Positions 35,892-38,923 of a stretch of DNA of 64,000 bases are shown piece by piece (the first letter of the stretch is position 1; every line of letters starts with the position of its first letter). This DNA comes from Rhizobium sp. 007 (GTDB lineage Bacteria; Pseudomonadota; Alphaproteobacteria; Rhizobiales; Rhizobiaceae), in the NCBI RefSeq assembly GCF_015353075.1, contig NZ_CP064187.1, positions 2,046,001 through 2,110,000 of the forward strand. Direction: 5' to 3'. The notes beneath the pieces are model-generated. The model did not search any database and was not told where the DNA came from. It saw only the letters and a list, made by a program, of their open reading frames with translations. The position numbers and the translations under genes are program-made.

Positions 35892-38483
35892 ATGAGCAAT
35901 AGTTTCGACGATATCCCCTTCTTCGACGAAGAACCGGGTGAAGCGCCGCGCAAGCCGCAGGCGCCCGCCCCTGCAGCCGGAGGGATTGCCGCCCGCGCCA
36001 TGGCTGCCCGCGACGGCGGCAAGCGGCCGGACTACCTCGCAGGCCTGAACCCCGAACAGACCGAAGCGGTCGAAACGCTGGAAGGCCCGGTCCTCGTGCT
36101 GGCGGGCGCCGGCACTGGCAAGACCCGCGTGCTGACGACCCGCATCGCGCATATCTTGAGCACCGGGCGCGCCTTCCCCTCGCAGATCCTCGCCGTCACC
36201 TTCACCAACAAGGCGGCGCGCGAAATGAAGGAGCGCATCGCGCTACTCGTCGGCGGCGCCGTCGAAGGCATGCTCTGGCTCGGCACCTTCCACTCGATCG
36301 GCGTCAAGGTGCTTCGCCGCCACGCCGAGCTCGTTAACTTGCGGTCCGATTTCACCATCCTCGATACCGACGACGTCGTGCGCCTCATCAAGCAGCTGAT
36401 CCAGGCCGAGGGCCTCGACGACAAGCGCTGGCCGGCCAAGCAATTCGCCGGCATGATCGATACGTGGAAAAACAAGGGCCTCGGCCCCGCCGACATTCCC
36501 GAAGGCGACGCCCGCGCCTTTGCCAACGGCAAGGGCCGGGAACTCTACTTCGCCTATCAGGCGCGATTGATGACCTTGAACGCCTGCGATTTTGGCGATC
36601 TGCTGATGCATCCCATCGCTATCTTCCGCAAGAACCCGGACTTGCTCAAGGAATACCACCAGCGCTTCCGCTATATCCTCGTCGACGAATACCAAGATAC
36701 CAACACTGCGCAGTACATGTGGCTGCGGCTGTTGGCACAGCGGCCGAGCCGCAAGTCGATCTCCCCCCTTGTGGGAGAAATGCCCGGCAAGGCAGAGGGC
36801 GATATCCCCTCGGACAGCGGCGCGAGTACACCCGCCTCGGTCGGCTCCCCCGACATCTTCCCCACAAGGGGGGAGATCAGGGACACCACCATCAACATCT
36901 GCTGCGTCGGCGACGACGACCAGTCGATCTATGGCTGGCGCGGCGCGGAAGTGGACAATATCCTGCGCTTCGAGAAAGATTTCCCGGGCGCCAAGGTCAT
37001 CAAGCTGGAGCGCAACTACCGCTCGACCGAACACATCCTCGGCGCCGCCGCGCATCTAATCGCGCACAACGAAGGCCGGCTCGGCAAGACGCTGTTCACC
37101 GACCGCGTCGATCCCGAAGACGTCAAGGTGCAGGTGCATGCCTCCTGGGACAGCGAAGAGGAAGCCCGCGCCATCGGCGAGGAGATTGAGGCCCTGCAGC
37201 GCAAGCAGCATAACCTCAACGACATGGCGATCCTGGTGCGCGCCTCCTTCCAGATGCGCGAATTCGAAGATCGCTTCGTGACGCTCGGCCTCAACTACCG
37301 CGTCATCGGCGGCCCGCGCTTTTACGAGCGCCTCGAAATCCGCGATGCCATGGCCTATTTCCGCCTCGTCGCCCAGCCCGCCGACGACCTCGCCTTCGAG
37401 CGCATCATCAACACCCCGAAGCGCGGCCTCGGCGACACGACCGTGCGCGCGCTGCACGACTACGCCCGTGCCCGCGACATCCCGATGCTCGCCGCAGCCG
37501 CCGACATCATTGAAACGGACGAGCTGAAACCGAAGGCGCGCAAGGCGCTCTTCGACGTGGTGCATAGCTTCAGGAACTGGCAGCAAAGGCTTGAAACGAC
37601 TCCGCATACCGAACTTGCCGAGCAGATCCTCGAGGAGTCCGGCTACACCGACATGTGGAAGGCCGACAAGACGGCGGAAGCGCCCGGCCGGCTGGAAAAC
37701 CTCAAGGAACTCATCCGCTCGATGGAGAGCTTCGAGTCGTTGCGTGGCTTCCTGGAGCACGTCGCGCTGGTCATGGATGCCGAGCAGAACGAAGACCTCG
37801 ACGCCGTCTCGATCATGACGCTGCATTCGGCCAAGGGGTTGGAATTCGACACTGTTTTCCTGCCAGGCTGGGAAGAAGGCCTCTTCCCGCATCAGCGCTC
37901 GCTCGACGAAAGCGGCCGCGCCGGGCTTGAGGAGGAGCGCCGCCTCGCCTATGTCGGCATCACCCGCGCCAAGCGCCGCTGCCACATCTGGTTCGTCTCC
38001 AACCGCCGCATCCACGGCCTCTGGCAATCGACCATCCCCTCGCGCTTCCTCGACGAACTGCCGGAAACCCATGTCGAAGTCGCCGAAGTCGAGCAGAGCT
38101 ACGGCGGTTACGGCCGCGGCGGCTACGGCCAGTCGCGCTTCGACAAGGCCGACCCCTTCGCCAATTCCTATTCCACCCCCGGCTGGAAACGCGCCCAAGC
38201 CAACAAGACCGACGCCACCCGCGACAATTGGGGCACCCGCTCGGGCCACGCGGTCGAACGTATCGGCTACGGCGAAAGCGGCCCCAGGGGCCGCACCATC
38301 GAAGGCGAACTCGTTGCCAAATCCACCTCCACCGAACCCTCCCGCTTCCAGATGGGCGACCGCGTCTTCCACCTGAAATTCGGCAATGGGAATATTACCG
38401 GGATCGAGGGCAACAAGCTGACGATCGATTTTGATCGGGCCGGGCAGAAGAGGGTGTTGGATGGGTTTGTCGAGCGTGTTTGA
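35892..38483 (+). CDS. uvrD: UvrD/Rep/PcrA-type helicase with in-frame palindromic insert
   Basis: An 863-residue SF1A helicase acting 3'-5' in DNA repair and replication restart. It shows the Q motif LNPEQTEAVETLEGP, Walker A AGAGTGKT at 71-78, motif II VDEYQDTN from 264, motif III GDDDQSIYGWRGAE from 340, VSIMTLHSAKGLEFDTVFLP (motif V) and ITRAKRRCHIWF (motif VI). The C-terminus ends in a Gly/Tyr/Arg stretch and a Tudor-like segment (GDRVFHLKFGNGNITGIEG). Residues about 289-330, between motifs II and III, are encoded by a palindromic element and have no helicase counterpart. No good ribosome site precedes the ATG. Confidence 0.93.
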   Translation: MSNSFDDIPFFDEEPGEAPRKPQAPAPAAGGIAARAMAARDGGKRPDYLAGLNPEQTEAVETLEGPVLVLAGAGTGKTRVLTTRIAHILSTGRAFPSQILAVTFTNKAAREMKERIALLVGGAVEGMLWLGTFHSIGVKVLRRHAELVNLRSDFTILDTDDVVRLIKQLIQAEGLDDKRWPAKQFAGMIDTWKNKGLGPADIPEGDARAFANGKGRELYFAYQARLMTLNACDFGDLLMHPIAIFRKNPDLLKEYHQRFRYILVDEYQDTNTAQYMWLRLLAQRPSRKSISPLVGEMPGKAEGDIPSDSGASTPASVGSPDIFPTRGEIRDTTINICCVGDDDQSIYGWRGAEVDNILRFEKDFPGAKVIKLERNYRSTEHILGAAAHLIAHNEGRLGKTLFTDRVDPEDVKVQVHASWDSEEEARAIGEEIEALQRKQHNLNDMAILVRASFQMREFEDRFVTLGLNYRVIGGPRFYERLEIRDAMAYFRLVAQPADDLAFERIINTPKRGLGDTTVRALHDYARARDIPMLAAAADIIETDELKPKARKALFDVVHSFRNWQQRLETTPHTELAEQILEESGYTDMWKADKTAEAPGRLENLKELIRSMESFESLRGFLEHVALVMDAEQNEDLDAVSIMTLHSAKGLEFDTVFLPGWEEGLFPHQRSLDESGRAGLEEERRLAYVGITRAKRRCHIWFVSNRRIHGLWQSTIPSRFLDELPETHVEVAEVEQSYGGYGRGGYGQSRFDKADPFANSYSTPGWKRAQANKTDATRDNWGTRSGHAVERIGYGESGPRGRTIEGELVAKSTSTEPSRFQMGDRVFHLKFGNGNITGIEGNKLTIDFDRAGQKRVLDGFVERV
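36758..36878 (+). repeat. Palindromic element inserted in the helicase coding frame
   Basis: The perfect 18-bp inverted repeat GATCTCCCCCCTTGTGGG (36758-36775) and CCCACAAGGGGGGAGATC (36861-36878) flanks 85 bases. The element keeps the reading frame open and adds about 40 residues (beginning SISPLVGEMPGKAEGD and ending DIFPTRGEI). CTCCCC...GGGGAG palindromes of this kind are common between rhizobial genes; here one lies inside a conserved gene. Confidence 0.85.
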
Positions 38484-38923
38484 CGAGCCGGCCCGCGCGG
38501 CACGAGGCATCTCGTCAAAAGGCTGACCCTGACATTCACAGCCGGCTTTTTTCGCGTTTATGCCGCCCCATTGCTTGAAGCAAAAAGCCGTCTCGGAATC
38601 GTCACACGCAACCCTGATTTCATTGTATCCATGCGACATCCATCGGCCACCTAGGCTTGTTTTGAAGCACCTTCGTACAGAAATTTGCGCAGTTAAATAC
38701 GGATCAAGCTTAATCGTCGTATAGGCACTGCAATAAAACCCTGAATTTAGATTGAATGTATCCGGCATTTGGCAATCGTTGCAGACGAGAGCTCGAGACG
38801 CTGTTCGAACGGGCTGGGGCCTCATTCCGACATCGGCGTAAACTGCACCTCACCCCCATTCGTGACTTCCCCCTCCGAGCTCCCTCCCCCATACTCCCTT
38901 CGGGCTGGAATAGGAGGATAGAG
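38484..38923. other. Intergenic region downstream of the helicase
   Basis: These 440 bases contain no convincing gene. AGCCGGCTTTTTT near 38540 can pair with GCCGGC near 38490 across a long loop and may be a weak terminator. The middle part (38570-38760) is AT-richer than its surroundings and could hold the promoter for the small peptide gene. The last 60 bases are C-rich (CCCCCTCCGAGCTCCCTCCC) and look like a repeat fragment. Confidence 0.4.

Follow-up and report, generated by a model that had tools for sequence, protein, structure and literature searches.

The DNA-repair helicase gene of the soil bacterium Rhizobium sp. 007 which we have studied contains a palindromic repeat inside its coding region. 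The repeat belongs to a dispersed family, leaves the reading frame open and is found at a site where many related species have other, unrelated repeats. Very probably, dispersed palindromic repeats insert widely and survive where the frame is kept in a disordered loop, the insert being most likely a tolerated passenger of the helicase. The insert is a single member of such a dispersed family, of the RIME, MITE or REP kind and probably not autonomous. The common ancestor of the seven related Rhizobium species that have it acquired it either through an insertion or through recombination with another, related genus. Its translation gives about 44 additional residues in a disordered loop, probably at the surface, which lies between a helix and the strand leading to motif III. 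No other place of the helicase core bears long insertions in the sampled order, and unrelated palindromic families have repeatedly been fixed in this loop in Rhizobiaceae and in Bradyrhizobium and its relatives. Selection acts mainly on the reading frame.

The helicase gene and its palindrome

The window, i.e. the whole stretch of 64,000 nt which was analysed, contains an open reading frame of 863 amino acids in positions 35892–38483 of the plus strand. Its best profile is PcrA (TIGR01073), with E 9e-234 and 778 bits, under the curated cut-off of 911. The nearest solved structures are PcrA (1pjr, E 1.5e-154) and UvrD of E. coli, so that both family profile and fold place the protein among the PcrA/UvrD helicases. 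The sequence VDEYQDTN (residues 264–271, positions 36681–36704, plus strand) is helicase motif II; GDDDQSIY (residues 340–347, positions 36909–36932, plus strand) is motif III. Between them there is a variable loop of 48 codons, residues 286–333, in positions 36747–36890 of the plus strand. The span from VDEYQDTN to GDDDQSIY has 84 residues here versus 40 in 23 other loci of the same genus; the excess is therefore 44 codons. On the PcrA structure 1pjr the insert is found between residues 242 and 245.

The loop contains a perfect inverted repeat of 18 bp, with a left arm in positions 36758–36775 (plus strand) and a right arm in positions 36861–36878 (minus strand). The arms are separated by 85 bases and the whole element measures 121 bp from arm to arm; if imperfect pairing is allowed, the arms reach 30 nt (83%). 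Of the 16 inverted repeats detected in the window with arms of at least 15 nt within 250 bases, this one is the longest. When the codons of the loop were shuffled 200 times, no 18-bp repeat arose (p = 0.005). The original prediction, made from the sequence alone, had described such a repeat around 85 bases between motifs II and III, with the frame open and about 40 residues added. All of this was confirmed, the frame being open across the insert and throughout the whole gene. On the minus strand there is also an open frame of 589 codons antisense to the helicase gene, in positions 37056–38825, which is probably a by-product of the high G+C content.

Module structure and copies in the genome

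In the insert a module of about 46 bp is present twice, the copies facing each other across a short spacer. The left module (36758–36803, plus strand) has its GATCTCCCCC end outside, it is followed by an inner spacer (36804–36829, plus strand), and the right module (36830–36878, minus strand) is the left one inverted. These limits were set by comparison with other copies, above all with the pcrA gene of a related genus (genome G536, locus L353), in which the same composite of module, spacer and inverted module is found in a nearly pristine state and with a similar spacer. The terminal inverted repeats expected of a MITE are present: the outer arms form 18 perfect pairs in the helicase copy and 17 of 18 in L353. 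In the loop alignments, inspected by eye, the element has no visible target-site duplication at its sides; the flanks there are too diverged from the empty site. Three sub-threshold Rfam matches over the element were taken as chance.

With the L353 copy as query we found 27 matches at 11 places in the genome of Rhizobium sp. 007 (E up to 0.05), a count which includes both strands of one palindrome. All 27 are found in a single contig (C1) and none in the other four, unlike the plasmids of related rhizobia, which are rich in the element. Each of the 16 rhizobial genomes tested contains the family, with 7–133 matches. A set of 186 plasmid records, of which 145 are from Rhizobium or Sinorhizobium, carries it at 992 places. 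The helicase copy is convergent; most other copies in its own genome are divergent pairs.

Three of the 11 places are inside genes with the frame kept: pcrA and two others, ribD and ftsY, both named by NCBIfam. The eight remaining places were judged from open frames alone; one of them, at 4075.7 kb, coincides with the beginning of an open frame, so that its status is ambiguous. It had been suggested that such palindromes are normally intergenic in rhizobia. This is partly right, with three of the 11 places inside genes.

Distribution in the genus and route into the clade

Each of the 148 genomes of the genus gave a match to a query of 601 bp spanning the loop. The alignment runs through the insert in seven of them (G000, which is Rhizobium sp. 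007 itself, G021, G024, G041, G052, G137 and G138), with E values of 8e-239 or lower. For the remaining 141 genomes no match is better than 9e-85 and, among the matches listed, the alignments break at the insert. The insert is thus not common to the related helicases. The span between the two motifs is 84 residues in the carriers, except for one with 78 after an in-frame deletion of 18 bp. The seven carriers are monophyletic with support 96 in a FastTree of 330 helicases, built from 343 rows after identical ones were dropped and with the loop left out. Identity among their inserts is 77–96%.

In the same tree G536 groups with Ensifer (support 99), and the two rows nearest to it (L083 and L354) carry other inserts. 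Its own insert is 83–87% identical to those of five of the seven species, and 80 and 77% to the remaining two. A short segment of pcrA may thus have recombined into the Rhizobium clade from this Ensifer-related genus, with no new insertion, a route for which we judge the chances to be even. It concerns the way in which the element arrived, not its nature. The shared composite and the position of G536 in the tree are in its favour, as is a window of 150 columns directly behind the insert, in which a clade member is 90.8% identical to G536 and 81.0 and 84.8% identical to two insert-free Rhizobium. On the other hand, the window of raised identity is short and similar values are reached in other windows. 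Further convergent copies are known (L477 and L479), which leaves room for two separate insertions of the composite. We regard this double insertion and a short intergeneric recombination as about equally likely.

The same loop in related species

In an alignment of 84 genes, those of the named genomes plus the seven carriers, the loop is the only position of the core with an insert of more than 6 residues; the alignment runs from about residue 52 onward. The loop has at least 10 extra residues in 41 of the 84 genes and at least 30 in 34 of them, with up to 75. The remaining variable places are found in the C-terminal linker.

Long loops are unevenly distributed. The sample at the level of class, formed by the 28 best-scoring loci of other orders and one locus of the same order from 135 matching genomes, has a loop of 36–41 residues in all 29 loci. 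In the order we read 142 loops out of 147 loci of 152 matching genomes, five being missed by the motif search: 108 have the shortest form of 36 residues, and nine, our own included, have at least 50, in four family labels. In the family Rhizobiaceae loops of at least 50 residues were found in 46 of 88 further loci, taken from 109 matching genomes of which mainly the lowest-scoring were left out. Among the named genomes this is the case for 31 of the 79 loci read, out of a total of 80. On these counts, Rhizobiaceae and the Bradyrhizobium group often have long loops, and few are found in the rest of the sample; since the loop is mostly short outside these groups, the site is not used everywhere. 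The largest insert which we have detected, in the pcrA gene of genome G565, reaches about 95 extra residues. In this gene (L422:722-1021) three types of repeat follow each other in series over about 100 residues, in one open frame.

The change between long and short loops requires at least 26 events on the tree, and the own type of repeat alone (class F1, see below) requires 11, although such counts can be inflated by errors in the tree, recombination and loose classes. The loop looks like a recurrent landing site, in which repeats are tolerated in a working protein. It might instead be a preferential target in Rhizobiaceae and Bradyrhizobium, with insertion favoured, or the insertions favoured, where palindromes, replication forks and the helicase meet, so that unrelated families colonise it, replace each other, are exchanged and modulate repair. 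We consider this rather unlikely; the recurrence of the acceptor loop is probably set by tolerance.

Sequence classes of the inserts

The 93 rows with a loop of at least 50 residues were sorted by short DNA motifs, with codon shuffles as controls. Seven motif classes cover 61 of them and 32 fit none; the counts are partly circular, because the motifs were written from the inserts themselves, and at least seven of the 93 rows duplicate a gene obtained from a second collection. One such duplicate pair (L088/L379) appears in two classes, since its insert holds both motifs. The classes are F1, our own type (19 rows), F2, of Ensifer type (4), F3, of Mesorhizobium type (5), F4 (16), and three of Bradyrhizobium type, F5 (6), F6 (6) and F7 (5). 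No motif is common to all the inserts at the loop.

The folding z is below -3 in 49 of the 93 long rows. Values of -3 or less are found in 16 of 19 rows of F1, 4 of 4 of F2, 5 of 5 of F3, 5 of 6 of F5, 5 of 6 of F6 and 5 of 5 of F7. Six of the seven classes are thus mostly hairpin-forming; F4, with 2 of 16, is the exception. Among the unassigned rows it is the case for 7 of 32.

Several classes are dispersed. The F2 insert of Ensifer BR816 has 88 matches in its own genome, and for F5 the 10 genomes tested gave 2–71 matches each. G565 has a composite insert, mainly of type F3, with 30 matches in its own genome and 0, 2, 6, 8, 8, 18, 87, 91 and 135 in nine others. In these whole-genome counts a palindrome is counted on both strands, and the copy in the helicase is included. 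Among the collected loci only, copies outside pcrA loops were found for all six rows of F6 and all five of F7. With the pcrA loops masked, the collected loci also gave copies for 9 of the 16 rows of F4, of which seven owe their copy to a single uvrB locus (L447) and two to other repeats contained in the same insert; it is doubtful that F4 is a dispersed repeat.

The ordinary expansion of a linker of high G+C content and low complexity could also yield palindromes by chance. The 32 long loops without a class, with a median folding z of -1.3, agree with such an expansion, and only 9 of them have a copy elsewhere in the collected loci (pcrA loops masked). As an explanation we find it extremely unlikely: the 18-bp palindrome of our own copy is absent from the codon shuffles and belongs to a dispersed family, and the inserts of Ensifer BR816, of Bradyrhizobium type and of G565 are dispersed as well. 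For the helicase copy the dispersed family leads us to reject it, and it stays as a reading for the unassigned loops and in part for F4. With 32 of 93 rows unassigned and F4 hardly forming hairpins, some of the loop inserts may be other than palindromes.

In-frame copies in other genes

Elements of the same types are also read in frame in other genes. In ribD the peptide of our own type of element is found by eye at one site in all 20 loci inspected, the best 20 of 148 matched genomes with our own included (L048:719-1975). These shared sites suggest that the ribD insertion is older than the one in pcrA. In these same ribD genes of 20 Rhizobium genomes (L491-L510) the element is in frame as a divergent pair. 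In ftsY of genome G510 (L479:1140-2876) several modules of our own type follow each other in a row in the N-terminal part, in one open frame.

In G536 a convergent copy of our own type is found in a C-terminal extension of uvrB (L477:1-1935) and an F4 stretch in an N-terminal extension of uvrB (L447:1200-3077), both outside the part matched by the UvrB profile. This genome thus has two genes of nucleotide excision repair, pcrA and uvrB, both with elements. The F3 repeat is in frame in ileS of G497 (L442), besides pcrA, and in glyS of G565 (L450) and of G497 (L451 and L459); in the latter it appears at two points 1.2 kb apart. Its peptide, SGPSGHLLPQGEKEG...SPLVGEGGSARSAETDEG, is therefore present in two tRNA synthetase genes and in pcrA. 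One of the ten element-bearing frames tested (L455) had no family match.

Drift of the insert and predicted structure

Among the seven species the pN/pS ratio, pooled over pairs which are not independent, is 0.62 in the insert and 0.048 in the remaining gene. The C-terminal linker has 0.08 and the first 45 codons 0.11. The insert thus drifts in a nearly neutral way; its ratio is below 1, which may indicate a weak constraint on the peptide. The hairpin also decays. The 18 Watson-Crick pairs of the palindrome become 15, 16, 11, 14 and 12 in five sister species, with 0 to 3 further pairs as G-T, and among these five no compensating double change was found. In a sixth sister most of the left arm has been lost by the in-frame deletion of 18 bp. 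We conclude that selection acts on the frame and on the lack of stop codons, and on little else. Given this almost neutral drift of the peptide and the uncompensated decay of the hairpin, we take the insert most likely to be a passenger which the helicase tolerates.

The decay of the hairpin also bears on a possible action at the level of RNA or DNA, in which the hairpin would slow translation or mark the DNA and the peptide would be incidental. Many inserts fold strongly, as is apparent from the 49 rows mentioned above, but a function of this kind is hard to reconcile with uncompensated loss of pairs and with the loss of 18 bp of an arm in frame, and it appears very unlikely.

In the AlphaFold model pLDDT is below 50 over residues 288–330, between a helix (272–282) and a strand (336–340). 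The model is poorly packed (pTM 0.42), and for this reason we have used only the local disorder of the loop. In a RecA-type fold such a turn from helix to strand is on the face opposite to the ATP site, and the loop is probably at the surface. The original prediction had left two possibilities, a loop tolerated on the surface or one which alters the helicase. The pN/pS ratio and the low pLDDT of the predicted structure favour the first and speak against the second, so that the insert would have no effect on the helicase.

It has nevertheless been considered that repeats in repair genes are not passengers. Di Nocera et al. 2013 describe REPs in the UvrABCD and recBCD genes, doubt that this is fortuitous and speculate on mutators (PMC3733652). 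Accordingly, the insertions could alter the repair protein and be kept for the mutator or recombination phenotype which a changed UvrD/PcrA, and UvrB, would confer. Repair genes do recur in our data, with pcrA and with the two different elements in uvrB of G536. However, the peptide of the insert drifts almost neutrally, differing families and peptides with no common motif are found at one site, and the loop is disordered in the model. Besides, ribD, ftsY, ileS and glyS are also struck, and both uvrB copies are outside the part matched by the profile. We regard an altered repair protein as unlikely, and tolerated passengers remain the explanation which we prefer.

Relation with known repeats

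According to PMC2229807 and PMC10969869, palindromes that code for protein are an established feature of Rickettsia (RPE) and Wolbachia. The same sources describe RPEs (Ogata et al. 2000, 2002) as elements of 105–146 bp, found in frame in unrelated conserved genes and also in intergenic regions, and report that a guanylate kinase bearing an RPE insert is still active, with a changed substrate affinity. Our element is also a palindrome within about 100–150 bp and is in frame in several unrelated conserved genes of one genome (pcrA, ribD and ftsY). It differs in the order of its host, and RPEs, as far as these texts describe them, are spread over many genes, whereas the rhizobial loop is also reused by unrelated families. 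A rhizobial analogue of RPEs had been proposed, and by behaviour it exists, because relatives are found without the insert and similar elements are found elsewhere, two of them in frame. The likeness is one of behaviour.

The REPs tagged by GTAG/CGTC are a second term of comparison. Di Nocera et al. 2013 find them inside replication and repair genes, the UvrD/REP helicase included, and CGTC families are found in Bradyrhizobium (PMC3733652). They are short palindromes, often dimers, which resemble our inserts by their presence in repair genes such as the UvrD/REP helicase and uvrB. The difference, as described in that text, is that REPs in repair genes are found at differing sites, except for recB of two Xanthomonas, whereas the rhizobial inserts share one site. 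An unpaired GTAG or CGTC end is absent by eye in L353 and in the modules inspected in our own genome, which end in GATC/AATC and GGGGGGT. The species with a REP in UvrD in that paper may overlap with ours.

Two other groups were compared by description. RIME (Osteras et al. 1995) are cited as annotated intergenic repeats of rhizobia in PMC2573895; like our element they are dispersed rhizobial repeats, but they are described there as intergenic. ERIC and other MITEs with open frames (Delihas 2007, as cited in PMC2229807) are small non-autonomous repeats fused in frame in genes, as is probably our element, in enterobacterial rather than rhizobial hosts. Our element may be mobile. Among the open-licence papers searched we found none which describes the reuse of a single helicase loop by unrelated palindromic families, or this rhizobial family in frame in genes; REPs in UvrD were noticed only in Di Nocera et al. 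2013 (PMC3733652).

Significance

The results extend protein-coding palindromes from intracellular Rickettsia and Wolbachia to the large genomes of free-living soil bacteria. The loop is a site of PcrA/UvrD which bears up to about 95 extra residues, as in L422 above, and it is useful for tagging. With at least 26 changes between short and long forms, nature has in addition provided a series in which a single site of a well-studied enzyme bears different inserts. It can therefore be tested whether the repeats found in repair genes are passengers in permissive loops or modifiers of repair.
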